From Atopobium sp. oral taxon 810 str. F0209 (lineage in GTDB: Bacteria > Actinomycetota > Coriobacteriia > Coriobacteriales > Atopobiaceae), in NCBI RefSeq assembly GCF_000466405.1, contig NZ_KE952951.1:1-41123 (forward strand): a stretch of DNA of 41,123 nucleotides. The letters run 5' to 3'. The translations under genes were made by a program, and so were the position numbers. Positions 12,442 through 33,285 of this stretch are shown piece after piece (within the stretch, counting starts at the first letter, position 1; the number at the start of each line of letters is the position of its first letter). The notes under the pieces were generated by a model that saw only the letters and a program-made list of their open reading frames with translations, did not search any database and was not told the DNA's origin.

Positions 12442-12649
12442 GGGCGATCCTTTCTTTCGCGTGAACTGCAACACACCTGATGGGTTCTTGCAGTCCCCTG
12501 ATACCTCCCAAATTCTAGCGCAGGACAGCATATACATGACACATTCGATAGAAATGGCAGATAGAAATAGCCATGGTCTGGGCCTCTTAGAGCGAAGAGG
12601 GGCATGAACGAACTACCTTAATATCCAAGATGAGCCATAAGGTTTATCT

Positions 12650-12762
12650 ACAGATGGTTCAAGCTTCGGTCTATCCATCCACAAAACAGCTGGTCAGTAT
12701 TTATGAAAACTCGAAGGATGAACCATCTGTGCTGATGGATACCGAAAAATGAACCATCTGAA
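12650..12762. repeat. Degenerate repeat cluster, core TGAACCATCTG, 31/62-bp spacing
   Basis: The core CAGATGGTTCA occurs on the minus-reading orientation at 12651-12661 and as TGAACCATCTG at 12719-12729 and 12750-12760. Core centres are 62 and 31 bases apart. Flanks are also shared: CTTCGG follows the first copy by two bases, and CCGAA or TCGAAG precedes the others. A decayed copy (CAGCTGGTCA) lies near 12687-12696, about halfway along the 62-base gap. The same core, flank and spacing recur at 29178-29259. Confidence 0.65.
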
Positions 12763-12857
12763 ATGTTGGGGCTAAGTCTCATCATAACTACCCGCATAGC
12801 GGATGAACTTCTTGTCTTGCGCATAAAACGCGCGAGACTGGGTTGATGACACGTATA

Positions 12858-12891
12858 AAAACGGACGCTGTCATGAAACAGCGTCCGTTTT
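12858..12891 (-). terminator. Rho-independent terminator of the catabolic operon
   Basis: A perfect 14-base stem, AAAACGGACGCTGT (12858-12871) with ACAGCGTCCGTTTT (12878-12891), closes a six-base loop. In minus-strand RNA the stem is followed by U residues and lies 23 bases after the last gene of the operon. Confidence 0.88.
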
Positions 12892-12913
12892 CTGCGCAGT
12901 GATGATTTTGCTT

Positions 12914-13921
12914 TTAATTTGCTGGCACTTCAACATCATTAATCAATTTAAATAATTTATCTTTATGTCCAAGTAAGAAATTGACGATGTTATTGCATGA
13001 AAAAACTTGGATATCACGCATTGATGAGGTTGAGTAAAACGCTGCATGGGGAGTAATAATAACGTTATCCCTACCTACGAGCGGATGATGAGCAAGGTCG
13101 GGAGTCTCGTCATACAAAACATCGGCACCAAAGGCACGGATTTGACCCGAATCAAGCGCCGCGACTAAAGCTGGTTCGTCAACGCTAAGACCTCGACCCA
13201 AATTAATTAAAATAGGCTGTCGTCTCATTAAAGAAAATGCTGCTGCATCAAAGAAGCCTCTGTTGCCTTCATTTAGACTCATATGGCATACGATTGCATC
13301 TGCTTTTTCATATAATTCCTCGACAGTTTTTGCTTGGGTGACGCTACGCGCCATGAATTCCACCTCATCGACGTAGGGGTCATATGCAATAATGTCATGC
13401 ACTAAATTTTGTGCTTTGCCCGCCGTACAGCGACCTATCTTTCCAAATCCCACAATGCCAAGCGTTTGGTCTTGCAAACGCGGATATTGAGGAGCAGCAG
13501 CAAAATCCCAAACATGATTTTCTTCAATTTGTTTGGAATAAAACTTGAGATGTTTGTTGAGAGCAAAAAGATACGCGATGGCACTTTCCGAAACATCCCA
13601 GGTGCAATACTCCCCTATAGGGCATATACCAATCCCCTGTTTCGTAGCAGCCTCTACATCTATATTGTCCCAACCAGTTGCATTAATGCCAATAACTTTC
13701 AACTTGGGAGCATGCTTACAAGCCTCTTTATTCATGGGGATAAAGGCGGTAAGCAACGCATCCACATTGGAAAGTTTTTCGTAAAACTCCGTTCGCGTTT
13801 CATCGGTATACGGAAAAACTTCTATTTCTAGGTCTTCACCAAGACCTTCTCTTAACGTTTTGATTTCGAGAGAATGCTCAGGCATCATGCTTTCAAAATA
13901 ATCACTGATAAGCACTTTCAT
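12914..13921 (-). CDS. D-isomer-specific 2-hydroxyacid dehydrogenase
   Basis: A 335-residue NAD-dependent enzyme of the D-lactate/phosphoglycerate dehydrogenase family. The dinucleotide-binding GFGKIGR is at 158-164, and the catalytic residues are in place: Arg243 (NLGRG), Glu272 (YDETPD) and His292 (TPHAAF). The family reduces 2-oxo acids to D-2-hydroxy acids reversibly; the substrate cannot be read from sequence. The long upstream open frame is a shadow of the next gene; the ATG at 13919-13921 follows GAGGAGG. It is last in the operon with the amidinohydrolase, permease and carbamoyltransferase genes. That placement suggests it handles a keto or hydroxy acid from the same substrate. Confidence 0.9.
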   Translation of the reverse strand: MKVLISDYFESMMPEHSLEIKTLREGLGEDLEIEVFPYTDETRTEFYEKLSNVDALLTAFIPMNKEACKHAPKLKVIGINATGWDNIDVEAATKQGIGICPIGEYCTWDVSESAIAYLFALNKHLKFYSKQIEENHVWDFAAAPQYPRLQDQTLGIVGFGKIGRCTAGKAQNLVHDIIAYDPYVDEVEFMARSVTQAKTVEELYEKADAIVCHMSLNEGNRGFFDAAAFSLMRRQPILINLGRGLSVDEPALVAALDSGQIRAFGADVLYDETPDLAHHPLVGRDNVIITPHAAFYSTSSMRDIQVFSCNNIVNFLLGHKDKLFKLINDVEVPAN

Positions 13922-13988
13922 GGTAGCCCACCTCCTCAAAAAAGGATGCCCGCCCACACAGGCGAGCATCCAAGAAACTACGACTAAT

Positions 13989-14846
13989 CTAAGGGCGCTC
14001 AATGGGCTGAGTAAGGCAGTGAGGTCCACCACCAGCATGCAAAATCTGATCAAACGGCACATCAATGACCTCAATACCCAAGGCACGCATCTTGTCATTA
14101 ATGTGTTTGTTCTTCTCGATTGCGATGACCTTGTTGTTGCCGATGCACTGCACATTGCAGCCATGTTTGTACATGTCTTCGCTTGCAACGGGGATAAGCT
14201 CAAAATTACGACGCTTGAGCATTTGAAGGAAGTTATATGGCAATTGATCAATGCAAGCCAGCGCCACCTGAGGAGCCACAATATTAAAAATCATATCGAG
14301 GTGCAAATTCTGCGGCGGGCAAGGTACACCTACAACGGTGTAGCCAAACTTTTCAAGCTGATGGCGCAGGCTTGCGACGCCCTGATCGTCGGTTCTGTCA
14401 ACCATACCAAAGGCGAGCGTATGCTCATCAAGCATCCAGAAGTCGCCACCTTCCATGCAACCTGCATTGACACGCGCAATGATAGGGACGCCCATCTCTT
14501 TTAGCTTTGCCTCATACTGTTGAGCCTCAACCTGGCGAACAGGATGGCGGAAGTGTCCCATAATGGCGCCTTCCCTCACCATGCAGCCATAATCACGGGC
14601 AAAAGTCATCACCTGAAACTCGGGTTTTGCTTCGACTTCTACAACCTCAATTCCGTTGTCATGGTAGGCATCCACCAAGGTCTGCCACTCAGCGACCATA
14701 ACATCGTTTTTCTCGGTATCGCCCTTCTTCATCCACTCAGAAGTGATGACGTTAATACCGTTGAAGGTGTAATACTTGGGTGAGCAAACCATAACTTTCT
14801 TCAGCGGGTTTGTAGCATTGGAGACATAGACTTTCTCTTCAGACAT
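13989..14846 (-). CDS. Amidinotransferase-fold hydrolase (arginine deiminase/DDAH superfamily), short form
   Basis: A 285-residue guanidino-modifying enzyme. The superfamily catalytic set is visible: Asp85 (FARD), Glu132 (EGGD), His182 and Asp184 (HLDM) and nucleophile Cys277 (GGGPHCLTQP). It is far shorter than true arginine deiminase ArcA (about 410 residues), lacking the helical insertion, and resembles dimethylarginine dimethylaminohydrolase or the hydrolase domain of arginine dihydrolase. Products would be citrulline (or an analogue) plus ammonia or amine, or, for a dihydrolase, ornithine directly. The operon adds a carbamoyltransferase and a permease, which favours a deiminase-like pathway. 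The true substrate is unknown. Confidence 0.85.
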   Translation of the reverse strand: MSEEKVYVSNATNPLKKVMVCSPKYYTFNGINVITSEWMKKGDTEKNDVMVAEWQTLVDAYHDNGIEVVEVEAKPEFQVMTFARDYGCMVREGAIMGHFRHPVRQVEAQQYEAKLKEMGVPIIARVNAGCMEGGDFWMLDEHTLAFGMVDRTDDQGVASLRHQLEKFGYTVVGVPCPPQNLHLDMIFNIVAPQVALACIDQLPYNFLQMLKRRNFELIPVASEDMYKHGCNVQCIGNNKVIAIEKNKHINDKMRALGIEVIDVPFDQILHAGGGPHCLTQPIERP

Positions 14847-14904
14847 TTCTTTCCCTTCCTGCTCAATTACAAATCTCTAACAAGTCGCGCGCCTTGGTAT
14901 GCAC

Positions 14905-16437
14905 CTATCCGAGAGTCACGCCAATTACGAGCGTTATGCAGCAGATGACAAAAATCATTCCAATAATGGGGAGGATTTTCTTAATCCAGTCGGCATAGCT
15001 AATATGTGCCGCAGAAGTACAGGTCATAACAATGACTGAGGTTGGTGTCACCATCTTTGCCATACCTAGAGCCATGCACATGATCGTGACCATCAGATGC
15101 ACAGGTACATTGGCAAAACGAGCCAATGCGGCCATGATTGCCATAGTTGCAGCAGCCAAACCTGTAGAACTAGGAATAAAGAATGCAATTGCAAAGTAAA
15201 ACACCAGAGACACGATGACAAAGACAATGGGAGGCAATGACGAAAGGGTCATCTCACCAAAGTGAAGAATGGTGGGAGTAATTTGGCCTGCATCCATGAC
15301 CACCTGAATGCCTCGAGCCATAGGAACTACAAAGGCTGTCGACACCAGAGCAGATGCGCCCTTCATAACAATACCGATGATTTTTTCGATGTCATAACCC
15401 ATGACAAAGCCAATAACGATAGTCATAACAAAGACAAGCGTGGTGAGCTCATTGAAATACCAGCTACCAAAGGGGGTGATGTCTTTACCAATGACAGTGC
15501 CAAGCACAGGAACCTCTGCAATGGCTTTTGCAAAATCATCAAAGAAGGTCCAAGATGGATTAATTGATGTCCAGGGAATAAAACCAAAAATCATAATGGT
15601 AAAAACCAAAACAAAAAGAATCAGAGCTGTACGCTGCTTGCTTGTTAACTCTTCGGCAGCACCATCATCAGTACCGGCAAATTCTGCCAAGTCTTTTTCA
15701 CGACGGAAGAACTGGGTAGAAAGTTCAGGGTGCGTCTTAATTTTGTCTGCATAGCGGCAAATCACAAACGAAGCGAGGGCAACAAGTACAATCAACAGGA
15801 TTGCACGCAGAGCCAAGCCCTCACCACTGGAAACACCAGCAATACCTGAGGCAACACCAACTGAAAATGGATTTACCGTTGAGGCAAGGCAACCTACCTG
15901 GGTTCCAATAACAACAATCATGACCGCAACAACGGTGTCTAATCCCAAAGATAAGATGACAGGAACAAACATCATGTAATACACAATGCCTTCCTCATAA
16001 GCACCTTCAAGAGTGCCAAAGAAAGCCATGATAGCAACCAGAGCAATGATCAATACATGCATATTGCCCTGACTCTTGGAAGTCACCTGACCCAAAAAGG
16101 ACTTAATAGCGCCGGTGTTATCCATCATCTCGAGGAAGCTACCAAATGCCATGATGGTTAGCGAAATGGCAATGGCAGCAGATGTACGAGCAGAACCAAC
16201 CATACCGATAATGGGTGCAAGAAAAACATCCCAAATACCTTGGGGATTTGCATCTACCGCATGATACGTACCAGAAATTGCCTGACCAGCTTCATTGAGA
16301 TCATAGGCACCTCCTGGAATGAACCATGATAAAGCTGCGATTCCTAATGTGACAAAGAACAAAATGACATAGGTATTGGGACTCTTAAGCTTGCGAGGTT
16401 TTTTCTCCTCAGCTTGCTGCGTAGTAAGTTCAGCCAC
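14905..16437 (-). CDS. YfcC-family permease (ArcD-like basic amino acid antiporter)
   Basis: A 510-residue polytopic membrane protein with about a dozen hydrophobic segments beginning at NTYVILFFVTLGIAALSWFI. It includes IPGGAYD after the first helix and the family's FIPSSTGLAAATM near the C-terminus. This family, related to C4-dicarboxylate carriers, includes the arginine:ornithine exchangers of streptococcal ADI operons. Here it probably imports the guanidino substrate and exports the product. The GTG at 16435-16437 lies six bases after GGGAGGAGG, a much better start than the upstream in-frame ATGs at 16476 and 16461. The gap to the carbamoyltransferase gene holds a hairpin. Confidence 0.88.
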   Translation of the reverse strand: MAELTTQQAEEKKPRKLKSPNTYVILFFVTLGIAALSWFIPGGAYDLNEAGQAISGTYHAVDANPQGIWDVFLAPIIGMVGSARTSAAIAISLTIMAFGSFLEMMDNTGAIKSFLGQVTSKSQGNMHVLIIALVAIMAFFGTLEGAYEEGIVYYMMFVPVILSLGLDTVVAVMIVVIGTQVGCLASTVNPFSVGVASGIAGVSSGEGLALRAILLIVLVALASFVICRYADKIKTHPELSTQFFRREKDLAEFAGTDDGAAEELTSKQRTALILFVLVFTIMIFGFIPWTSINPSWTFFDDFAKAIAEVPVLGTVIGKDITPFGSWYFNELTTLVFVMTIVIGFVMGYDIEKIIGIVMKGASALVSTAFVVPMARGIQVVMDAGQITPTILHFGEMTLSSLPPIVFVIVSLVFYFAIAFFIPSSTGLAAATMAIMAALARFANVPVHLMVTIMCMALGMAKMVTPTSVIVMTCTSAAHISYADWIKKILPIIGMIFVICCITLVIGVTLG

Positions 16438-16502
16438 GGCAAACCTCCTCCCTTGGCCCATCTTCTGACGAGCCATCTTGATAAAAAATTTGATTTACTG
16501 GC

Positions 16503-16528
16503 ACTTCGCCCCTCGAGGTCGGCGAAGT
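16503..16528 (-). other. Intercistronic hairpin between carbamoyltransferase and permease genes
   Basis: ACTTCGCC (16503-16510) pairs with GGCGAAGT (16521-16528) over a ten-base loop that is itself partly palindromic (CCTCGAGG). No U-tract follows, so it is more likely an RNA processing or stability element than a terminator. Confidence 0.5.
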
Positions 16529-16544
16529 TAAAGACAAGACTTAG

Positions 16545-17561
16545 CTAGACAGAGGGGATATATAGATTCCCCAGCGTTGCAGCCATAATCGCCTTAATCG
16601 TGTGCATGCGATTTTCTGCCTCTTCGAATTGATGTGCATGCCCTGAATAAAAAACATCGTCGGTAACTTCCATAGCAGAGATACCGAACTCCTGTTTGAT
16701 CTTGTCAGCATATTCGGTCTCAGCATTATGGAAGGCAGGTAAGCAGTGCAGGAAAATCCAATCTGGATTTTTAACATGGGAAACAAGTTCTGCATTCACC
16801 TGATAGGGACTCATTTGCCGCACACGCTCTGCAAACTTGGACTCCTCACCCATAGCCGCCCATACGTTGGTATAGATGGCATCAGCATCAACAACTGCTT
16901 CGATAGGGTCGTTCGTAACGCGAATGGTGGCTCCACTTTCCTTGGCAAACTGCTGGGCAGTTGCAACAATCTCGGGGTCAGGCTCGAGCTCAGCTGGTGT
17001 CGCATTGGTGTAATTCACGCCAAGAATTGCAGACGTAATCATCAAAGAATTCTGAACGTTGTTGCGACCCTGACCACAATAGGTAAGGTTAATACCCTCA
17101 AGTTTGCCAAAATGCTCTTTGATGGTCATGAAGTCTGCCAGCATCTGCGTGGGATGCTCACGGTCAGTAAGACCGTTCCACACAACAACACCAGAGTACT
17201 CTGCCAACTGCTCAACATGCTCCTGCTTGAAACCACGGAACTCGATACCGTCAAACATCGATCCCAAAACTTTAGCGGTATCCAAAACTGTTTCTTTGTT
17301 ACCTAGCTGAATATCGTTTTTCCCAAGGTATTCTGGATGAGCGCCCAAATCAATCGAGGCGGTAGTAAAAGCTGCACGGGTACGTGTTGAAGTCTTCTCA
17401 AAAAGCAAAGCGATGTTTTTCCCCTCAAGATAATGATGGGGAATACTGCGTTTCTTCAAATCTTTGAGATGCTCCGCAAAGCCAATAAGCCATTCAAGTT
17501 CGGCACGGCTGAAATCCCTTGTTGAGAGTAGGTGACGACCTTGAAAAATAGATGTAGACAA
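16545..17561 (-). CDS. Ornithine-carbamoyltransferase-like enzyme with altered acceptor loop
   Basis: A 338-residue carbamoyltransferase. Carbamoyl phosphate contacts are intact: STRTR at 58-62, HPTQ at 136-139, HCLP at 272-275. Overall it resembles catabolic OTC (ArcB). The loop that grips the ornithine alpha-amino group, normally DVWVSMG, reads NVWAAMG (232-238): the conserved Asp is Asn and the Ser is Ala. GDGRNN reads GQGRNN at 163-168. These are not the putrescine-carbamoyltransferase residues either. It probably works on a ureido/amino product of the adjacent hydrolase, perhaps not ornithine. Translation starts at TTG, with AGGGG seven bases upstream. No carbamate kinase gene is nearby. 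Confidence 0.88.
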
Positions 17562-17892
17562 AACAAGCCCCTTTCGACTTGGCTAGAGCCCGTCTCTTTC
17601 CCGACGGACATCACCCAAGACAAAAGGCGACCCCTCCTGGCAGACCGAGAACATCTCCCGCCATTGCTGACAGACCGTCCCGAAAACCAGCATGTGCTCA
17701 CGCACATGTGACACAAGCAATTCCAGATTGCTTGTAGCAGAGTCTAAGTGCAAGCCTAGGAGCTCAGCAATGGAGGAACTACATATAAAGCCATCAAGGT
17801 CTTGTTGCTTCTTACAAATATGCTGGTAATTGCTGCGATTTTGATAGCAGAATTCATTTGAAGGGCGAGGTTAAAGACCGCTTAACACTATC
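17562..17892 (-). promoter_or_regulatory. Long structured leader of the catabolic operon
   Basis: This 331-base gap between the regulator and the carbamoyltransferase gene has no convincing gene. Two adjacent perfect hairpins stand out: CATGTGC/GCACATG (17691-17697 with 17702-17708) and CAAGCAAT/ATTGCTTG (17714-17721 with 17727-17734). The region probably contains the operon promoter and the regulator's target. The hairpins could be operators or RNA structures. No T-box or known riboswitch motif was seen. Confidence 0.45.
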
Positions 17893-19053
17893 TTAGCTAC
17901 CGCTCACAGAGAGGGGCAGTAAAGCTATCGAAAGCACGGTCGCCAAGAACCTATCCGACTCGTCTTCCATATTCAGCAAAGCTTTTAGCTTTTTGAGTCG
18001 ATAACGAATAGTGTTGGGATGCTGCCGCAAAGCATATGCGGTTTGAGAAATACTTCCTTGATAAGAAAGGAAAATCCTGAGTGTTTTTATCAGCTCTCCA
18101 TCGGCATCCCCAGCTTCAATTCGGCGAAGCCACGTCTTTGCTTCGCGCTGATACAGAGAATCCGAATTTGCAATCAAAGCAAACTTGTCTGCACCAATTT
18201 CACTCCAAAATGCAAGAGGTTGGCGCTTGATTTCAGCATAGTTTGCTGCAAAAATCGCCGTTTTCAACACTAAGCAAAAATCTGATGCATCGAAGGCTGT
18301 TCCCACTCCACAAGGACTCATAAATAGAGCATGCAACTGTTTTGCAAGTTCTTTTGCCTCATATTCCAGCTTTGCGTTAATGCCATCACGATTTGGCGCA
18401 CAAATGAGCACGAGCGCATAACCATCGAACCGCTGAGCAATATATTTACATTTTTCTACATCAGTCCGACTCATTGCAATGCGATTGCGGATGTCGCTCA
18501 ACATAATTCTCGCTTGAGAAAAGTCTTCTGGCAGCGACAATGCAAGACATATAAGCTGTCCCCCTACCACTCCGCTTATTGATGTCAGCGCAGCGCTAAC
18601 TTCTTTGGAGCTCCGTGGACCAATCAATGCACGCAAAGTGTCTTCGCGTGCTTCCTCTTGTTGATCCTCATGTATGAGTTTCAGCGCATCAAACACAACT
18701 GCTTCGTGATAGCGACCTTCATAAAGATAAACAGGTACGCCGCTTTCGCTGCTTTTCTTTTTTACTGCCTCCCCAATATGGGGTCTATATACCGTCTTTA
18801 CGCCAATCCCCGCTACACCACGATCAATCATTGCAAGCAGGGCACGGTCAGATTCAAGCTCATCGCCGTTTGTAAAACCAAGGTTCGTAAGGATAAACTC
18901 CCCCGGCATATACGCGCTATATCCATTAAATTCTGGCCCTATATCAAGAATACCAACATTAATGACCGTACGGGATTCTGCTTTTTCACAAGGAGCAACA
19001 AGGCGCGCATTGTAAATTGATGGAAGAGAAATAATATCCGCAACGGTAGCCAT
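17893..19053 (-). CDS. PucR-family transcriptional regulator
   Basis: A 386-residue protein with the N-terminal purine-catabolism-regulator domain (MATVADIISLPSIYNARLVA and the GEFILTNLG segment) and the C-terminal helix-turn-helix QTAYALRQHPNTIRYRLKKL. PucR-type regulators usually control catabolism of nitrogen compounds and bind a small ligand. The ATG at 19051-19053 follows GAAGGA; the longer upstream frame has no family match. It sits immediately upstream of the catabolic operon in the same direction, which makes it the likely local activator, responding to the substrate or a pathway intermediate. Confidence 0.87.
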   Translation of the reverse strand: MATVADIISLPSIYNARLVAPCEKAESRTVINVGILDIGPEFNGYSAYMPGEFILTNLGFTNGDELESDRALLAMIDRGVAGIGVKTVYRPHIGEAVKKKSSESGVPVYLYEGRYHEAVVFDALKLIHEDQQEEAREDTLRALIGPRSSKEVSAALTSISGVVGGQLICLALSLPEDFSQARIMLSDIRNRIAMSRTDVEKCKYIAQRFDGYALVLICAPNRDGINAKLEYEAKELAKQLHALFMSPCGVGTAFDASDFCLVLKTAIFAANYAEIKRQPLAFWSEIGADKFALIANSDSLYQREAKTWLRRIEAGDADGELIKTLRIFLSYQGSISQTAYALRQHPNTIRYRLKKLKALLNMEDESDRFLATVLSIALLPLSVSGS

Positions 19054-24719: not shown

Positions 24720-24771
24720 GAGGTGGCAAGGCTAAACATTACAGCCCTGCCACCTCGAAACCTATCTATTT
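24720..24771. repeat. Left copy of a 52-bp perfect direct repeat bounding the island
   Basis: This copy is identical over 52 bases to 29277-29328 and in the same orientation. The first 37 bases form a long hairpin: GAGGTGGCA pairs with TGCCACCTC, with a further GGCT/AGCC pairing inside. It lies between prfA and the last gene of the island. No T-run follows in either direction, so it is not a classical terminator. Confidence 0.9.
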
Positions 24772-24773
24772 CT

Positions 24774-24790
24774 GAGTTCTCTCAGAACTC
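24774..24790 (-). terminator. Hairpin after the island's last gene
   Basis: GAGTTCT (24774-24780) pairs perfectly with AGAACTC (24784-24790) over a three-base loop, about ten bases after the last island stop codon. Weak or no U-tract; it may act with the adjacent 52-bp hairpin. Confidence 0.35.
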
Positions 24791-24800
24791 TAGAATGTAG

Positions 24801-25340
24801 CTAATTGAACTTGTCGTGATAAACGATATCAAATAGCCATTGTAGGTTTATCCAAGGCTTTGACTGCGCATCTATGAGAGGCTGTACGCTTTTGTAGATG
24901 TCCTTTTTGATGTCTTGTTCGTTGAAATTTTTTATGTCTAGGTCTTTATAGCCCCTATCTGAATCAAAAGCACTTAACAGTTTAAATTTGTTATTAAATT
25001 CAAAACCTAAGTTTTTGTTAATAAACCTATATCCTCTAGTGCCATCTAAATTGAATGTCGAAAGATATCCCAACTGTTTTCCGTTTTTATCGTAAGTCAA
25101 AATTGCTGGCTTACCATCAAAATCGTAGCCAATTGTCTTGAGATCGTCAGGAGTATAGATGTCTTCGAGATTGTCAATCAGCATCATGAGTACGGGTTCC
25201 GTACCCTTCTTATGAGGGGTGTATTGCGCGTAATATACTGAATGCGATTTAAGGTTGAAGGAGATATATCCAAGTACTACCGACAAAAGCAGCAACCATA
25301 GCAGCAGTCTCTTTACAACACCTTTTATCTTTTTAAGCAT
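24801..25340 (-). CDS. Small membrane-anchored protein, paralogue 1 (lipobox lost)
   Basis: A 179-residue protein of unknown function. A basic start and hydrophobic segment (LLLWLLLLSVVLGYIS) give an N-terminal anchor; where the upstream paralogue has a lipobox Cys, this one has Tyr. The rest is extracytoplasmic by inference. Residues about 25-90 and the last 45 closely match the paralogue, and the final 100 coding bases include a block identical in DNA (24828-24927). The middle, about 95-135, differs. It lies two bases after its paralogue and downstream of the large surface protein. AGG is 11 bases before the ATG, a weak site. Confidence 0.85.
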   Translation of the reverse strand: MLKKIKGVVKRLLLWLLLLSVVLGYISFNLKSHSVYYAQYTPHKKGTEPVLMMLIDNLEDIYTPDDLKTIGYDFDGKPAILTYDKNGKQLGYLSTFNLDGTRGYRFINKNLGFEFNNKFKLLSAFDSDRGYKDLDIKNFNEQDIKKDIYKSVQPLIDAQSKPWINLQWLFDIVYHDKFN

Positions 25341-25342
25341 GA

Positions 25343-25882
25343 CTAGTTAAACCTATCGTGATAAACAAGATCAAATAGCCATTGTAGGTTTATCCAAGGC
25401 TTTGACTGCGCATCTATGAGAGGCTGTACGCTTTTGTAGATGTCCTTTTTGATGTCTTGTTCGTTGAAACCTTTCATATCTATTTTTTTATAACCTTTGT
25501 TTGCATCACGTATGTTCTTCAGTTGAAAACTTTCAGTGAAGTGGAAGATTAGATTCTCATTATCAACCATATACCCTCCATCACTATCTGGCGTCAGAAA
25601 ACCTAACTGCTTACCCTCTTTATCGTATGTAAGGATTGCAGGTTTACCATCGAAGTCGTAGCCAATGGTCTTGAGATCATCGGGAGTATAGATGTCTCCA
25701 AGATTATCGATAAGCATCATGAGTACGGGTTCGGTACCCTTCTTATGAGGGGTGTGTTGTGCGTAATATACTGAGTTCGATTTGAGGTTGTAGTTGATAC
25801 ATCCAGGTATGGCTGAGAGCATCAGTAGCCACACTAATAGCCCGAAACAGCCTTTTACTACGTTCTTTATCTTTTTAAGCAT
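25343..25882 (-). CDS. Putative lipoprotein, paralogue 2
   Basis: A protein of 179 residues starting MLKKIKNVVKG, with a hydrophobic stretch ending LSAIPGC, a credible lipobox; it would be a lipid-anchored protein on the outer face of the membrane. Shared core segments with paralogue 1 are HKKGTEPVLMMLIDNL and DDLKTIGYDFDGKPAILTYD. The middle region diverges while both ends are nearly identical. A start two codons earlier (25888) is equally possible. It follows the large surface protein by about 12-18 bases, so the three genes form one operon. Function unknown. Confidence 0.85.
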   Translation of the reverse strand: MLKKIKNVVKGCFGLLVWLLMLSAIPGCINYNLKSNSVYYAQHTPHKKGTEPVLMMLIDNLGDIYTPDDLKTIGYDFDGKPAILTYDKEGKQLGFLTPDSDGGYMVDNENLIFHFTESFQLKNIRDANKGYKKIDMKGFNEQDIKKDIYKSVQPLIDAQSKPWINLQWLFDLVYHDRFN

Positions 25883-25899
25883 AACCATCTGTCTCGTTT

Positions 25900-28800
25900 C
25901 TATTTCCAGAATCTTTTGAAGAACTTGCCTATCGGTTTGGCTACCTTGTTTTTTACAAATCTGGCAACTGGTTTTATTACTTTCTTTTTGATGAACTTCG
26001 CCGTTGGCTTTATTACCTTGCGATAGAGAGGTTTCACAGCAGGTTTTATCACCTTGTTGTAGAGAGGCTTAATAACTTTTCTATGCACAGGTTTTATAAG
26101 CTTGTTATGTACAAACTTTGCAGCTGGTTTGATTACCTTTTTCGAAATAGGCTTGATGATTTTGTTGCTTACAAATTTGGCTACAGGTTTTACTACTTTG
26201 TTTTTAATGGGACGGATGATTTTGTTCTTAACAAACTTTGCTGCAGGCTTGACTAGCTTTTGTACAACTGGTCTCAGTACCTTTTTCTCTACGACGGAAA
26301 GCGCTGGTTTTATGAGCTTTTGATAAGCTGGTTGAACTAGAGATGTACCTACGGGTTGAAGTATATGTTTGCCAATAGAGGTAGCTGCAGGTCTCAGTAC
26401 ATGAAGATATACCTTCTTACCAAGTGAAGATGCTATCTTGGCTCCGTAAACTACTGCGTTAGAAGCTAGGTTACTCAAAGTCCCCAAAGCTACCCCTACA
26501 AGGGTAAGGGGCGTCGTTGCAATCGCAATGATGCCGGGGCCAATCTTTGAAAGGAAATTTTTAATATAGCTAACAGGATTATCCTTGAATTTCTTAGCTT
26601 CTTTTTTCAACTTATTTTTCAGTGCAAGCAAGATTAATAGCATGCCGCTCAAAGTCAGTGTTGCACCTAGGATATTGTTCCGTTCTTGCACCTCTATGCT
26701 AGCACCACTTTTTGATTGAAGTGCAAGCACCTCTTTGTAGAGACGTTGACGCTCTACCTCAAGGTTTTCTGTGCTGTAATAGCGTTTGATGCATTCATCT
26801 AAGGTGAGATTTTTGAAGTCAGGATGATAGTGAAAGATGATTGCATCTATATCTGTTCTGCGATCTTTGGCATTGATGTTGGTGAGGGTATCTCCTGTTA
26901 GAGAGTTGAGTTGAAAGAAGTTGTCTTCGGGAGAATGTCCAAAAAGATTGCTGATAGATAGCCCAGCCAACCATTTGAGGATTTCTTTTTTTGGGCCACT
27001 GTCTTCTGCGGTGGCAAGGGTGGTGGCAAGATGGGGGAAGTCGGCTAAATAGTGTCCTTTTTGATGTATACGATCCAACAGATCCTTAATGTCACTATAG
27101 TTCTCAACTTCAGGTTTCTTCCCAAAATCATTAGTAAGCGATTGCAGAAAATCTTCGGCATACACGGGATAGGCAATCGCATTTGCTATCGCATGATTGA
27201 TTTTGTTTTTGTCTTTGCCGTACTTTTTCTTTGCTTGGCGAGTAACTTCATCTATGTAGTCTAAAAACTGTTTCTTCTCTTCTGCAGTCATGTTGGTATT
27301 GATCAAAAAGGGATCGATTGCAGCTTTGGGAGGGGTTGGTTTTGTAGGAGTGTTTGTAGGACTGCTTTTATGTGGGACCTGCGATGAGGTGGTTTGAGTT
27401 GTCTGCCCTGTATGAAATGTATTGTTCTTACTGTCATGCTGAGTGGTATTTTTGCCTGCATTTTTATGTTCATGTGTAGGACGGGCTATCTTCTTATATA
27501 CAAAGACATGCTCTAGATCACGGGTAATGATTGCTTGGTAGGTGTTAGGGACTATATAGCCCTCTATTGATTCAGGTTTATATGAGAGCTGCTTTCCTTC
27601 TAATACGCTGTACTGTCTGTCTTTTGCTAGTTTCTTCCCTGCTTCATCGACAAAGCTAAACTTGACTCTGTATTCTGGTGAATATACAAACGTGATAACG
27701 GGATAGTTACTATCACTCTCATCTTTTTTGATATCCACGAGTTGATAGCTGGGAATCAAAAGAGAACTTATTCGGTAGCTTTCATCGGTAAAGCCCCTAT
27801 AGAACTCTTTTGCCTTTATATCATTTCCTGTGGTATCGACATATTGAACGAGAATATGCTGGCTGATTCTGGCTTGTAACTTAGCTTGCAAGCTACTACC
27901 AAAAATGTCGTATCTAACTGCCGTAGGATAGGCATAGGAATCATGCGCTCTTGCGGGTGCTGGAGAATAGAAAATATAGCTAAAGTGAGACAGAAATCCT
28001 GCTCCTAGATATCCCCCTCTAGGCAAATCAGCTGATCCATTAAGATTAAGGGCGCCTTTTGTAGTGTCGTAAATGATGCCATTCTTTTTTGTGAGGTGAG
28101 ACTCTTTAGGGATTATTTCAACAATATTCGCGAGATCAGTTTTGACTCCCTGGGCAGAGTCAATATCGGTTGAAATAAAGCTCACAACTACCAGCTGCTC
28201 TTCGGTAGTGGCGTGTTTTACTATTCTGTAGTTCAATCCAAGCCGACTGGCATTGTTGTATAAGACAACAATTGAATTACCACGAGCACCATCGAAAAAT
28301 TGCTCGCCAATAAATCCTAGACCTTTAATTCGGTGGTCATTGTATCCAGAATGGGCTGCCCAGTCCTCTTTATCAGAACTAATGACTGTCCAGATGAGGT
28401 CCAAATCTATGCCAGATTTAGTCTTGCCTACATAGGTGATTCTTCCTGAGTCCCCATTATTGATACTAAAAGTCTTTACCCGGGCGTGTGGTCTCGCACC
28501 AGAAAAATTCGAGAAATCATAGTTGCCGAGTTCTTTTCCCTTTATTGACTCAACAGTAGTTTTCTCTGACCAATGCAAGCCTTCTTTGGTAAGGAAATGT
28601 GCATCTGTAAGGTTTTCTCCAACTATTGAAATCGTGATATTTCTAAAGTACTCAACACCCTTTTTGCTCGTATCAAGCTCACCTAATACCGTCGCTTCTT
28701 TTACCGTAGGTGTTGTATCCTTTTCAGGCTCTTCTTCTTTAGTAGGAACTTTTGCTTCTGATCCCGTATCACCAATTTCTACTGCGGGCTCCTGAGCTGA

Positions 28801-29088
28801 CACGTTTTCTTTGGTATCAACTTTTGCTTTGGTATCTAAATCTTCATTAGTATTATCGTTTGGTGTAGCGGTAGTGACTTCTTTTGTATCACTACCTGCA
28901 TCATCCTCGCTAGTTTCTTTGTCGTCGGGCTCTTCTTGTATATTTTCTATAGTCTCTTTTGAAGCTGGAGGAATTTCTTCAGCATAGGCAAGAGGTAATC
29001 GTAAAAAGAGGGCCAGCAATAGGAACATGGGTGTCAAGGCTAACGCTCGTGTCATATGAGCAACAGAGCTTGAGAGCTTCTTTTCCAC
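25900..29088 (-). CDS. Large secreted/membrane protein with MucBP-like domains and a K/P-rich 20-residue repeat tail
   Basis: A 1062-residue protein, start GTG with GGGG upstream. Parts in order: signal peptide (1-36, ending AYAEE); acidic low-complexity stretch (37-135); a beta-rich adhesin-like region (about 145-400); two MucBP-like domains (about 410-470, 472-534, starting ILVQYVDTTGND and RVKFSFVDEAGKK); a Thr/Pro/His linker (535-590); a helical domain (590-800); a membrane segment (808-824); a second hydrophobic stretch (849-882); then a cationic tail (890-1062) in which K-P pairs recur at alternating 8 and 12 residues, a 20-residue unit. There is no LPXTG. I do not recognise the helical domain. 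AT-rich relative to neighbours, suggesting transfer. Binding to mucin or host surface is inferred from MucBP. Confidence 0.85.
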   Translation of the reverse strand: MEKKLSSSVAHMTRALALTPMFLLLALFLRLPLAYAEEIPPASKETIENIQEEPDDKETSEDDAGSDTKEVTTATPNDNTNEDLDTKAKVDTKENVSAQEPAVEIGDTGSEAKVPTKEEEPEKDTTPTVKEATVLGELDTSKKGVEYFRNITISIVGENLTDAHFLTKEGLHWSEKTTVESIKGKELGNYDFSNFSGARPHARVKTFSINNGDSGRITYVGKTKSGIDLDLIWTVISSDKEDWAAHSGYNDHRIKGLGFIGEQFFDGARGNSIVVLYNNASRLGLNYRIVKHATTEEQLVVVSFISTDIDSAQGVKTDLANIVEIIPKESHLTKKNGIIYDTTKGALNLNGSADLPRGGYLGAGFLSHFSYIFYSPAPARAHDSYAYPTAVRYDIFGSSLQAKLQARISQHILVQYVDTTGNDIKAKEFYRGFTDESYRISSLLIPSYQLVDIKKDESDSNYPVITFVYSPEYRVKFSFVDEAGKKLAKDRQYSVLEGKQLSYKPESIEGYIVPNTYQAIITRDLEHVFVYKKIARPTHEHKNAGKNTTQHDSKNNTFHTGQTTQTTSSQVPHKSSPTNTPTKPTPPKAAIDPFLINTNMTAEEKKQFLDYIDEVTRQAKKKYGKDKNKINHAIANAIAYPVYAEDFLQSLTNDFGKKPEVENYSDIKDLLDRIHQKGHYLADFPHLATTLATAEDSGPKKEILKWLAGLSISNLFGHSPEDNFFQLNSLTGDTLTNINAKDRRTDIDAIIFHYHPDFKNLTLDECIKRYYSTENLEVERQRLYKEVLALQSKSGASIEVQERNNILGATLTLSGMLLILLALKNKLKKEAKKFKDNPVSYIKNFLSKIGPGIIAIATTPLTLVGVALGTLSNLASNAVVYGAKIASSLGKKVYLHVLRPAATSIGKHILQPVGTSLVQPAYQKLIKPALSVVEKKVLRPVVQKLVKPAAKFVKNKIIRPIKNKVVKPVAKFVSNKIIKPISKKVIKPAAKFVHNKLIKPVHRKVIKPLYNKVIKPAVKPLYRKVIKPTAKFIKKKVIKPVARFVKNKVAKPIGKFFKRFWK

Positions 29089-29177
29089 GGTATTTTCCCC
29101 GAAATAAGCAGCATATGACTTTTTTATAGTAGTCCTTGCAACCGAGTCATATAGGATGCAAAACGCATCTTTTTTAA

Positions 29178-29259
29178 TAGATGGTTCATTCTTCGGACTT
29201 TTGAAAAAACTTACCTGCCCATTTATGCTTGCTTACTTCGAAACTTGAACCATTTGCGG
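29178..29259. repeat. Degenerate TGAACC-core repeats upstream of the island operon
   Basis: TAGATGGTTCA (29178-29188) followed by CTTCGG, and TGAACCATTTGCGG (29246-29259) preceded by CTTCGAAAC, have cores 62 bases apart in opposite orientations. Midway lies ACCTGCCC (29213-29220). The same element lies about 30 bases from a core in the large array (31460-31467). Confidence 0.55.
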
Positions 29260-29276
29260 TTATTTAGAAGAGCTTT

Positions 29277-29328
29277 GAGGTGGCAAGGCTAAACATTACA
29301 GCCCTGCCACCTCGAAACCTATCTATTT
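29277..29328. repeat. Right copy of the 52-bp perfect direct repeat
   Basis: This copy is identical to 24720-24771, 4,557 bases away in direct orientation. It lies immediately after the stop of the M3 peptidase gene and ahead of the island operon on the minus strand. Together the copies look like a duplicated boundary or attachment site; no integrase or transposase lies between them. Confidence 0.9.
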
Positions 29329-29334
29329 TGTTAG

Positions 29335-31038
29335 CTATTCGATGCCAGTCAAATCATAAGACTCAAGCCATTTGCTTGCATGCTCGCAAACACTGCGCAA
29401 GCATGCTTCATCAAAGGGCGAGACAAGCTCGGCCCCAGCCACAAGATCAGTAAATGCTTTGGTGCCACCTTGACGGGTGTATGCCATGTAATGTTTCCAA
29501 GCATTGGCAAAGTCCTCTTGAGAGAGCTCCCAAATCTCAAGCGCCACAGTCTGTGCCAAGCAATAATCGATGTAATACAGCGGCCACTCGTAAATGTGTA
29601 TCTGGCGCTGCCAACCCATGCCGTCACCATAGAAAGGAATATCGCCATCAACAGATATCCAAGGCATATAGATTGCCAGCAAGCGACGCCAAGTAGCATG
29701 GCGCTCGGCAGGAGTCAGCTCGGGCTGCTCGTACATCAGGTGCTGGAAGTGATCGACCATCGTGCCATAAGGAATGAAGGTAAGGGCACCCGCCAAATGT
29801 GCATAGCGATATTTACGTGCATCCTTGCCAAAAAATCCCTCAATCCAAGGCCACGCGAGGAACTCCATACTCATAGAGTGAACCTCACAAGCTTCTGAAC
29901 TAGGCATTGCAAGCGAGCCGGGCACACGCTGAGTATTCATGTAATAACTAAAGGCATGACCCGCCTCATGGGTCATCACGTCAACATCGCCTTGAGTACC
30001 GTTGAAATTAGCGAAGATGAACGGGACTTTATGATCAGGAATTTCGGTCATGTAGCCGCCAGCAGCCTTTCCCTTTGTGGAAAGCAAATCCATTAGCTGG
30101 CCATTGAGCATGGTCTCAAAGAATTCCTTAGTCTCGGGGCTAAGCTCACTGTAGAAGGTACGTGCAGCCGCCACAATGTCATCGGGCGTGCCTTCGGGCA
30201 GAGGATTTCCTGAACGGAAGGTCAGACCCTCATCTGCAAAAGAGAGGGGATACGGGCGGCCAATACGCTTTGCTTGCTCAAGAAAAACTCTATTGGCCAC
30301 AGGCACCACATAGGTACGAACAGCCTTGCGGAAACGCTCAACATCTTCGCGGTTGTAGCTCAAGCGCTCCATGCGGTCGTAGCCTAAAGGAAGATAGTTG
30401 TCGTAGCCAAGTTTTTTGCCCATAGCATCACGGACATGTACCAGTTCGTCGTAAATGCGATCCAGCTCGGATTGGTTGTCTTTGTACCATGAGCCTTCAG
30501 CTTTCCATGCAGCAAGGCGGCGCGCGTCGTCTTTATCGTGTTTCATGGGAGTAAGCTGAGAGAGAGTATACGTACCACCCTCAAACTCAATCTGAGCAGA
30601 GGCGATAAGCTTTTCGTACTCTTGGACCAAGGCGTTTTCGCGCTTCATCTCATCCATAATTGCAGGAGAGAAACAACGGCGCGCCTGCTCGGCTTTGTCA
30701 AAAATAAGCGTGCCATACTTTGCCTCAAACTCAGGACGGAAGGGCGAGGCAAGCAAGGCTGCACTCCAAGCATCATCAGCTTCCTCAATCTCAGGAGATG
30801 CATCATTCCAGAACTGCTGCTCTTTATCGTAAAACTCGTCAAGCGTGTTAATAGAGTGGCGAATCTCAACAAGGGTATTTAAGGTCGAAATGTGCGCTGC
30901 GAGTCGATCTCTTTCTAGGAAGACTTTCTCTGCTTCCTCAAAGCTACTAGCTTTGGCGAAGCGTTCTGTCAATGCGCTGATATCTGCCTTGACCTTTGCC
31001 AAATCGGGACGCTCATAGGGCATATCCTGAAACTTCAT
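29335..31038 (-). CDS. M3-family oligoendopeptidase (PepF-related)
   Basis: A 567-residue zinc metallopeptidase. The HEAGH motif (about residues 354-358) provides two zinc ligands and the catalytic Glu. It lacks a signal peptide, so it acts in the cytoplasm, cutting oligopeptides of medium length. The length and N-terminus (MKFQDMPYERPDLAKVKADI) fit the PepF-related M3B group. AAAGGAG lies six bases before the ATG. It appears monocistronic: an 837-base repeat-rich region lies upstream and the 52-bp repeat downstream. Confidence 0.92.
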   Translation of the reverse strand: MKFQDMPYERPDLAKVKADISALTERFAKASSFEEAEKVFLERDRLAAHISTLNTLVEIRHSINTLDEFYDKEQQFWNDASPEIEEADDAWSAALLASPFRPEFEAKYGTLIFDKAEQARRCFSPAIMDEMKRENALVQEYEKLIASAQIEFEGGTYTLSQLTPMKHDKDDARRLAAWKAEGSWYKDNQSELDRIYDELVHVRDAMGKKLGYDNYLPLGYDRMERLSYNREDVERFRKAVRTYVVPVANRVFLEQAKRIGRPYPLSFADEGLTFRSGNPLPEGTPDDIVAAARTFYSELSPETKEFFETMLNGQLMDLLSTKGKAAGGYMTEIPDHKVPFIFANFNGTQGDVDVMTHEAGHAFSYYMNTQRVPGSLAMPSSEACEVHSMSMEFLAWPWIEGFFGKDARKYRYAHLAGALTFIPYGTMVDHFQHLMYEQPELTPAERHATWRRLLAIYMPWISVDGDIPFYGDGMGWQRQIHIYEWPLYYIDYCLAQTVALEIWELSQEDFANAWKHYMAYTRQGGTKAFTDLVAGAELVSPFDEACLRSVCEHASKWLESYDLTGIE

Positions 31039-31875
31039 GGATGGCTCCTTTGTTTTGCTTGTTATGCGACAGTACTACGCTAGCAAATTTTTACCTTTGA
31101 AAGATTAGCGCCGCATCTTCGCGATAAGAAATACCCTTTTACAGCGCAAATCAGTCCGTCATGAAATAACTCCTTTGCGCGTCTTTGCTCCACCAGCGGC
31201 CCCCTCAACGCCCACCTCCACAGGCGGTTCAATATGCACCCTTTCACCCGTACTTTCCCTGCAGGCGGTTCACGTTGCACCCTTTTCCCACATCGGGTTC
31301 AATAAGCACCCCCATTCTTCAGCCGTTTGGTACGCTTTTGAACCGCCTGCGGAAAAGTGACTACAACGGGTTCATAAAGCACCCTTTTTACCTGCAGGCG
31401 GTTCAATAAACGCCCTTTTCCCTGCAGAGGGTTCAAGAGGCGCCCTCGGAAGAAAATTTACCTGCCCTTTCTCGAGCCGTTTGGTACGATTTTGAACCCT
31501 CTGCATTAAATGGAAGGCATCGGGTTCAATAAACACCCTCGTGGAAATTTTTATCAGGGCTTTGTGGAAGCAGAGCGACGGTTTTGAACCGTTTGCGGGG
31601 ACGTGGGACGGTATTGAACCGCCTGTGGAGGGTTGAGGGCGATGCGGCGCTGTTTGTGTGGGTTGCGACGCTCTTTGAACTGCTTACGGAGGGCCTGAAG
31701 GAGCTTTCGAACCGGCTACAGGAATTGGGGTGTACTGAAACCACCTGCGGTGGATTGCCCATAAAAGCCATAGCCAAGCAGTTGGGCGCGGTGGCACAGA
31801 TGCGTAGCAAGCTCCATAATGGGTAGGGGCTTTGGTTACAATAGCAAGCGACACTACGCAATTTTAGGGATAATG
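31039..31875. other. 837-base gene-free divergent region dominated by a periodic repeat array
   Basis: The region lies between the divergent M3 peptidase gene and the secreted-protein gene. Open frames here are short or read through repeats (for example a minus frame at 31526-31906 with RRFNTV/KRFKTV echoes) and have no ribosome-binding sites. Apart from promoters, which I could not place, the content is the 31-bp-phased array at 31218-31745. Confidence 0.7.
31218..31745. repeat. Array of about 14 degenerate TGAACC-core repeats with helical (about 31-bp) phasing
   Basis: Cores (TGAACC or its complement GGTTCA) are centred near 31229, 31270, 31299, 31341, 31372, 31403, 31433, 31495, 31526, 31587, 31617, 31678, 31711 and 31739. 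Intervals are 41, 29, 42, 31, 31, 30, 62, 31, 61, 30, 61, 33 and 28. The unit reads roughly GGGTGCTTAT then TGAACCGCCTGCAGG. Seven of the first nine units read towards the peptidase gene and the last five read towards the plus-strand gene. Two plus-oriented units (31341, 31495) share the longer upstream flank GCCGTTTGGTACG. Copies are too diverged and too variable in spacing for a CRISPR array. Confidence 0.8.
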
Positions 31876-33285
31876 ATGAGCAAAGACGGACTTCATAACG
31901 ATACAAGTCTGCCTTCTACTGCAGCAACCACTGAGGAGCACAGCGCTACATCAGATATCCTTGAAAAGACTGAAATTACAGCTACGCGCCTTCAAAATCG
32001 CGATTTCCTCAATAAGGGGCCAGAGCAGAGCTCAGAGCCAGCTCCAGATACCTCGCCAAAATCGAAATTAGAGCGTCATCCCTGGCTGCAAGCTCATCTA
32101 CGTAGCCTAGTAGTACTGGGAATAGCTGCGGTCATTCTTCTGTCGATGATCACAATTTCATCAATTCGTGCAACAGACAAGCCATCGCTCAATCAGGTGA
32201 GCAGCGACATTGCCAACCTGTCCGAGGCTCCTGCCTATGACCCTGGCGATTTTGGTCGTGATACGACGCTAACCCTAGATTCTGTGGACTATAGCGAGGT
32301 CATCCGCGATGAGGACCACTGCAATGCAACAGGTGCTGTCATTTACGCAGGCGATGGGATTGCTGCACGCGAGAAGGTTAGCCTTCTATATGACCGCCAT
32401 GGCCACGGCAAGTGGTCTACAGCTGGAAATCTCATCATCCAAGAAGTGAGCTGGTCTGCCAGCAAAGGACCCGATACGGATAAAGTGCTTACACAAGCAC
32501 GCGTTTTTTTGCAGCGTGCAGATATTGCAGAACGTAAATCTGCCAAGACAGACGAAAAATCTAACCAGACAAACACTTCTTCTACGGAGCAAGACTCTCT
32601 TTATTCTCTCTACCGCGATGCTGACTGCACCGTATTCCAAGAAGAATTCGACTCCGAGACCAACAATGCCACAGTTGTGCTGGCTTTTTCCAACAAGGAC
32701 AGTTTTTCCGAGCGCAAGTGCAAGCTCACAATCAAGTTTCATCTCTCATCACAAACAGGTCAGTGGGACATCAAATCCTGCACGCCAGATGCAGATGCAC
32801 GAAAGACAAGCTACGCCCCGCTTGTAGGCACATGGACAGGCAGCTATCAATCACAGAAAAATGACGGCCACGGCTGCTATGGTGCAAACTCTTCGCCGCT
32901 CAAAATCACTATCGGTAGCACGCAAACCGGCGATGATGGCGTTACTCAGTTAACGGGGACATTTTCGGGCCTTGTACACCATCATGGGGCTGTATCCAAG
33001 GATACGGATTCAAGCGAAGGCGACGTACGCATTGAGAACGTCTCGTTTACCAGTACGCTTGAAACAAATACAAGTGGGGCCTTGGTATTAAAGTACACAA
33101 CACCCAAATCTGCTGAGGGCACCATCGAGCTTATGCTGGTTTTTGGTGGAAGCAAAACTCCCAATGCCGCAACTGCAACACTAACAACCCATTATGAAAA
33201 CGAGCAAAACTTCTTAGTCATCCCCTACACCGTCAGAGGCGAATTTGCCGATAGCTATTCACTTAGCAAAGACGGTGCAGACTAA
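31876..33285 (+). CDS. Membrane-anchored extracellular protein of unknown function
   Basis: A protein of 469 residues. The N-terminal 75 residues are charged and Ser/Thr-rich, followed by one membrane segment (SLVVLGIAAVILLSMITISS) and a long outer domain. It has cysteines in HCNATG, DCTVF, RKCKL, SCTPD and GCYGA contexts, and a C-terminal beta-rich part (LVGTWTGSY, ITIGSTQTG, QLTGTFSGLVHHHG) that resembles lipocalin/avidin-like sheets only loosely. I do not recognise the family. The chosen ATG follows AGGG by six bases; an ATG one codon earlier is too close. The long N-terminal extension to 31819 lacks a ribosome-binding site. Confidence 0.8.
   Translation: MSKDGLHNDTSLPSTAATTEEHSATSDILEKTEITATRLQNRDFLNKGPEQSSEPAPDTSPKSKLERHPWLQAHLRSLVVLGIAAVILLSMITISSIRATDKPSLNQVSSDIANLSEAPAYDPGDFGRDTTLTLDSVDYSEVIRDEDHCNATGAVIYAGDGIAAREKVSLLYDRHGHGKWSTAGNLIIQEVSWSASKGPDTDKVLTQARVFLQRADIAERKSAKTDEKSNQTNTSSTEQDSLYSLYRDADCTVFQEEFDSETNNATVVLAFSNKDSFSERKCKLTIKFHLSSQTGQWDIKSCTPDADARKTSYAPLVGTWTGSYQSQKNDGHGCYGANSSPLKITIGSTQTGDDGVTQLTGTFSGLVHHHGAVSKDTDSSEGDVRIENVSFTSTLETNTSGALVLKYTTPKSAEGTIELMLVFGGSKTPNAATATLTTHYENEQNFLVIPYTVRGEFADSYSLSKDGAD

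Follow-up and report, generated by a model that had tools for sequence, protein, structure and literature searches.

Modular repeats whose internal module occurs in variable number are known from streptococci as BOX elements. The repeat family described here is likewise modular with one module in variable number and, as compared by description, differs from BOX in its hosts and in the layout of the module. It also has the terminal inverted repeats, the lack of coding capacity and the multiple copies of a MITE. REPINs consist of a short motif in an inverted doublet of constant spacing, able to form a hairpin, and occur in high copy between genes and in tandem clusters (PMC3116915); the present family resembles them in each of these traits, its doublet spacing being 63 bp compared to 71 bp in the GI REPINs of P. 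fluorescens (PMC3116915). It differs in having no RAYT in the genus or linked to the palindrome elsewhere, and in stacking extra end units outward every 30 bp. Furthermore, REPINs have conserved ends and a variable spacer, whereas here conservation lies in the centre, CCTGC(GGATAT), and it is the arms that differ, a contrast which depends on the inferred homology of the palindromes of two genera. With BIMEs the family has in common an intergenic mosaic of units that alternate in orientation and are evenly spaced (PMC2817692). By description, the present family is set apart by its rigid 30/30/63 grammar and by its unit, which is a TGAACC-N3-TG site and not a self-palindromic REP, a dyad arising only between two units. 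BrickBuilt of Porphyromonas gingivalis is similar in being a dispersed non-autonomous element, the copies of which vary in how many short tandem repeats they contain and whose presence or absence differs by site between strains (PMC4596501). It is built of 23-nt direct repeats with terminal inverted repeats resembling resident IS elements (PMC4596501), whereas in the present family it is the motif of the inverted ends that is repeated, in a stack beyond the core, and no matching IS was found.

A preliminary description of the locus had stated that no described element matched it. That holds for the sequence: literature searches on the Coriobacteriia, with most subscription papers outside their scope, did not find an element of this sequence, and the relatives of the array across the Atopobiaceae fit no catalogued repeat found. 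The kind of element (REPIN, BIME, MITE) is already known, and the array is probably a member of a dispersed, non-coding, REPIN/MITE-like family of mobile palindromic repeats in which recognition units are stacked.

The window, ie the whole stretch of DNA analysed, comprises 41,123 nucleotides of contig NZ_KE952951.1 from Atopobium sp. oral taxon 810 str. F0209. The array lies between an M3 peptidase gene and its right neighbour, and its features are as follows.

29335..31038, minus strand: left neighbour, M3-family peptidase
31218..31750, no strand: whole array, three cores plus outward-pointing units
31221..31231, minus strand: outer unit TGAACCGCCTG
31262..31272, minus strand: second unit TGAACCGCCTG, one 41-bp step beyond the unit at 31221..31231
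31296..31344, minus strand: core A, of the 69-bp type shortened to 49 bp, GGTTCA ... TGAACC, 43-bp step
31311..31539: tandem repeat of core plus units, 75-bp copies at 31311-31385 and 31465-31539, 154 bp apart
31364..31374, minus strand: unit TGAACCCGTTG
31395..31405, minus strand: unit TGAACCGCCTG
31430..31498, minus strand: core B, full-length 69-bp array type, GGTTCA-N57-TGAACC, with the GTACC side on the minus strand
31523..31590, minus strand: core C, 68-bp variant with arm GCAGAGCGACGGTTTTGAACC
31615..31625, plus strand: unit TGAACCGCCTG
31676..31746, plus strand: three degenerate outer units, TGAACTGCTTA, CGAACCGGCTA and TGAAACCACCTG
31819..33285, plus strand: right neighbour, predicted 488-aa protein with no Pfam match
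Two-unit form of the motif: TGAACCCGATG

Eleven exact copies of TGAACC/GGTTCA are found in 31218-31745 (528 bp), compared to a mean of 0.38 and a maximum of 4 in 5000 first-order Markov simulations. They start at 31226, 31267, 31296, 31369, 31400, 31430 and 31523 on the minus strand and at 31339, 31493, 31585 and 31615 on the plus strand. Degenerate versions are present on the plus strand at 31676 (TGAACT) and 31708 (CGAACC), and at about 31736 (TGAAACC). The 14 units of the preliminary description were all recovered, 11 as exact and three as weak ones, and the spacings it listed agree within 1-2 bp with those measured, which for the exact units are 41, 29, 43, 30, 31, 30, 63, 30, 62 and 30. 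Three bases past TGAACC there is a TG in 11/11 exact units, although TG was outside the search pattern, and the unit is therefore TGAACC-N3-TG; the preliminary description does not mention this TG. The 63, 62 and 43-bp steps are palindromic cores, and the array is made up of three of these in tandem, all of the array type (one 20 bp short, one of 68 bp), with units on both sides. It contains no N in the assembly.

A blastn search with the window array matched 62 places across the same genome. Recurrence of the spacings at other loci had been set beforehand as a test, and they were found in approximately 28 arrays, read from the genome stretches around the matched loci and all with one spacing grammar. 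Taking all arrays together, the distance between neighbouring units on the same strand is 30 bp for 67 of 96 pairs and 40-42 bp for 12; a plus unit is followed by a minus unit at 30 bp in 39 of 42 cases, and a minus unit by a plus unit at 63 bp in 44 of 54. The 63-bp step corresponds to a 69-bp palindromic core, GGTTCA-N57-TGAACC, of which there are 66 exact copies in the window genome, compared to one in the sister species and none in three other congeners. Blocks of core plus units are repeated in tandem with periods of 93, 123 or 153 bp. The reading as a regulatory array peculiar to this locus is not supported, since the genome has about 28 arrays and at least 66 cores. Over the longer blastn matches, the identity of the array copies to that of the window is 67-88%, and their spread is therefore not recent. 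The assembly is a draft in which several contigs end inside arrays and some arrays contain runs of N, so that lengths elsewhere are uncertain. A scan of genome contigs for three units 30 bp apart, in which records of the window genome or very near ones may be missing, returned unrelated organisms, apparently through chance or other repeats.

Many of the spacings, such as 30 and 63, are divisible by three, as might be left by a decayed coding gene or the remnant of an insertion sequence. Such an origin is nevertheless highly improbable. None of the open reading frames spanning the array gave a significant match in Pfam, so that the decayed gene which the earlier account had kept in view was not found and a coding remnant was rejected; the orientation of the motif alternates, and a Pfam scan of 95 neighbouring proteins gave mostly housekeeping families, with no gene or transposase family recurring in the tally. 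Viral-contig, phage and plasmid collections contained no match, and a phage or plasmid origin was rejected likewise.

The core occurs as two sequence types, the array type (eg core B, 31430-31498) and a solo type. Two of the latter are in the window.

12656..12724, minus strand: solo-type core, with one more unit beyond it at 12750
29183..29251, plus strand: solo-type core, a short way downstream of the M3 peptidase gene

In the solo cores the inverted ends are lengthened to AGATGGTTCA...TGAACCATCT and enclose a centre, GAAAAATSTGACCTGC, which is conserved, and several solo cores also have outward units at 30-31 bp, on the same plan as the arrays. With the solo-core model, 29 matches are listed in the window genome (29 candidates having been scored), and for the sister species there are 27 rows, some of which are one site on both strands; solo cores are thus common in both. 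Near-identical solo cores are present at five unrelated loci, having the core in common and the first flanking unit partly in common, which suggests that the core moved relatively recently, presumably by transposition. At one intergenic site the solo core is in opposite orientations in the two sister species (L208:2875-2973 and L223:9440-9538), suggesting either inversion between the arms or independent insertion. A 6.5-kb segment of the window (12577-19046), one edge of which adjoins the solo core at 12656, has no syntenic counterpart in the sister species.

In the sister species the M3 peptidase is 97% identical as protein, and DNA identity is about 90%. The site of the array comprises 14 bp there, compared to 584 bp in the window genome, the extra DNA spanning approximately 31218 to 31790. 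No target-site duplication was recognised at this empty site, where about 14 diverged bases distinguish it from a clean insertion, and the absence of the array may reflect gain in the window species or loss in the sister. At two further array sites (L026 and L023) the sister has no recognisable array, with 23 and 44 bp instead, and at a third (L018) a possible degenerate unit is kept. A similar array is present in both species at L032, and the 12-unit array at L016 is a single eroded core in the sister. Some sites are occupied in both species, so at those sites the family predates the split, and the erosion of an orthologous array to a single core means that part of the species difference is loss. 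Array-type cores are all but restricted to the window genome, with at least 31 rows there and four in the sister, one of these strong; no other genome of the family has them, ie they are found in 2 of 140. In the first six solo cores read in the sister, the left arm (in the orientation of the centre) is GGTTCG in five, with CGAACC opposite in four.

The same comparison showed that approximately 4.5 kb of the window (24720-29330), bounded by direct repeats of about 50 bp, GAGGTGGCAAGGCTAAACATTACAGCCCTGCCACCTCGAAACCTATCTATTT, are absent at the sister's corresponding place. This segment encodes a 1062-aa MucBP-domain protein (25900-29088) with C-terminal repeats. Within the coding region of this surface protein there are 24- and 60-bp tandem repeats (26040-26261, KPVAKFVKNKIIKP-like).

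Gene context was tabulated for 66 elements from the window genome (G000) and the sister species (G001), with simple longest-ORF gene calls and the background measured in G001. Every classified element fell in a gap between genes. Convergent gaps hold 29 of the 66 elements compared to 25 of 136 background gaps (Fisher p = 2e-4), and divergent gaps hold five compared to 28 of 136 (p = 0.02); the divergent gap of the window is an exception to the convergent preference. According to the preliminary description, most units on either side point the same way as the neighbouring gene. Orientation set by the genes is not supported: the order left-minus, right-plus is built into the core and is also seen at convergent and tandem genes, so the direction of the units relative to the window's genes is a by-product.

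The solo-core model gave one weak match (E ~2e-4) in another genus of the Atopobiaceae, g33, and this led to palindromes of about 80 bp, in multiple copies, in most g33 genomes (L261-L285). With a model built on the g33 palindromes, 11 of 11 scored candidates match in many g33 genomes, and there is no match in the window genome. Model R2 also has hits outside g33, in a small number of genomes from other genera and from a different family of the same order; a match of G130/L243 to model R1 was unconvincing by eye and was left out. The g33 palindromes have a conserved asymmetric centre, CCTGCGGATAT, and species-specific arms (ATTAACGCGCA..., AATAACACGCAGAATT, AGTACGCACAGTTC) which nevertheless remain complementary. 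Their centre, CGAAAAnnnnnnCCTGCGGATATAYG, resembles that of the window-genome core. They are flanked by TTCTCG/CGAGAA pointing outward (62 outward compared to 12 inward, p = 3e-9), which is the layout of GGTTCA/TGAACC in the window genome with a different motif, and the flank units are irregularly spaced, with no fixed 30-bp step. Across an alignment of both genera the arms change in concert, with a covariation of 0.46 compared to 0.20 when shuffled and 0.07-0.14 when slid. The similar centre, length and asymmetry suggest that the two sets of palindromes are homologous, while the weakness of the linking match and the lack of hits by the g33 model in the window genome count against the link. 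It is possible, though somewhat less likely than not, that RAYT-independent palindromes extend across the Atopobiaceae, their centre fixed across genera and their arms and outward motif replaced together in each species, as if tracking a fast-changing recognition protein, with the arm motif multiplied into 30-bp arrays in the window species.

Constraint on the motif was measured by anchored sampling, in which middle units were taken between two exact units 60 bp apart, avoiding selection for the motif. Sampled by position in this way, 15 of 18 middle units keep TGAACC exactly. Information is 1.4-2.0 bits in the TGAACC columns, about 0.5 in N3, 1.4-1.7 in TG and 0.2-1.5 in most others; TGAACC-N3-TG is conserved above the neighbouring columns, as would be expected for a recognised site. 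This part of the earlier proposal of a protein-binding array stands. The motif is intact in old arrays, which selection would explain equally well and which counts against the mobile-repeat reading. The main rival is accordingly a binding array that works for the host, since the same constraint also fits it: a nucleoid-associated or regulatory protein would bind cooperatively to TGAACC-N3-TG, and so shape the chromosome or insulate convergent genes. In addition to the conservation of the motif over its surroundings in old, diverged arrays, and in all 11 exact units of the window, the rigid spacing of the units would suit such a protein, and it seems to be the site that is constrained and not a hairpin. 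We consider this explanation unlikely, because array cores are restricted to the two genomes, several sites are eroded or missing in a sister approximately 90% identical, and the array has no promoter or terminator signal except for one weak promoter match at its edge.

The helical geometry also argues against a host array. With 10.5 bp per turn a 30-bp step covers 2.86 turns, a drift of -0.14 turn per unit, so after two steps the drift exceeds a quarter turn. Phase coherence at 10.5 bp was no better than at 11 bp, and was similar at 31.5 bp. The 41-bp steps, compared by eye, have a related insert sequence in common, so they look like one inherited event and were counted once. The case for phasing then comes down to some three inherited lengths (30, 41 and 63 bp), and phasing is not established. 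The placement of all units on one face of the helix, offered as one reading in the preliminary description, is not borne out by these few inherited intervals, by steps which are not whole turns or by the irregular flank spacing in g33. Its further suggestion, the remains of a tandem repeat kept in phase, came close as regards the tandem repeat, and the evidence for a kept phase is weak.

A third explanation is that the elements act as RNA or single strands, with hairpins in 3'-UTRs, or read in both directions, blocking or processing transcripts between convergent genes. The bias towards convergent gaps is in its favour, as are the concerted arms of the two genera and the folding of the window array at -229 kcal/mol compared to -196 ± 7.5 for shuffles; most of the solo cores tested also fold, as DNA, better than shuffles. 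Long inverted repeats, however, fold well regardless of role. In the array cores there is no covariation beyond the invariant motif: the N3 positions of opposite arms (columns 10-12 and 82-84) are mostly unpaired, with pairs in 6-9 of 31 sequences, which does not exceed chance, and the constraint looks like that on a recognised DNA site, not on a hairpin kept for pairing. The tandem gaps have no orientation bias relative to transcription (11 compared to 6, p = 0.33) and the array has no U-tract terminator. The Rfam 15 covariance models matched nothing in the window at the gathering score; the palindromes at nine other loci had no match either, with E values up to 1 allowed, and a structured RNA was rejected. 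A hairpin function is improbable on this evidence.

The inverted doublet at a fixed 63 bp, intergenic, hairpin-capable and clustered in tandem, would be accounted for by a true REPIN/REP family, once moved by a RAYT (Y1) transposase which has since been lost from the genus. The genome-wide search for transposase families covered Y1_Tnp. Such proteins occur in 95 of the 140 genomes of the family, frequently in g33. The window genome and four congeners have none, and at 20 Y1_Tnp loci of g33 (L290-L309) the palindrome was within about 2.5 kb at 0/20. Most of the flanks read at the g33 Y1_Tnp genes carry other palindromes, of different sequence, often GGGGAC...GTCCCC (eg TTCAAAAGGGGTCTGTCCCCTTTTGAA). 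A RAYT was rejected as mobiliser on these grounds, and with the centre conserved and the arms diverging between species, the reverse of what is described for REPINs, we regard this origin as quite improbable.

The mobile-repeat reading can be set out as a sequence of steps. The basic element would be the 69-bp core, in which an asymmetric centre lies between the inverted ends, GGTTCA...TGAACC, these being lengthened by N3-TG. The end motif is probably read by a sequence-specific protein, which could be a transposase, a recombinase or a host DNA-binding protein. In the window lineage, further copies of the end unit of about 30 bp would have been added outward on both sides, and whole blocks of core plus units repeated in tandem to give the arrays, the units having presumably multiplied by slippage or recombination. 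The array would not be expected to have an essential role at the window locus.

A repeat family which looks and spreads like REPINs with no linked RAYT implies that something else must copy or maintain it. With about 90% DNA identity between the sister species, one of which has intact arrays where several sites of the other are eroded, reduced or without an array, gain, loss and maintenance can be compared site by site. The conserved centre, together with the concerted turnover of the arms, provides a handle for finding the protein that recognises the element.
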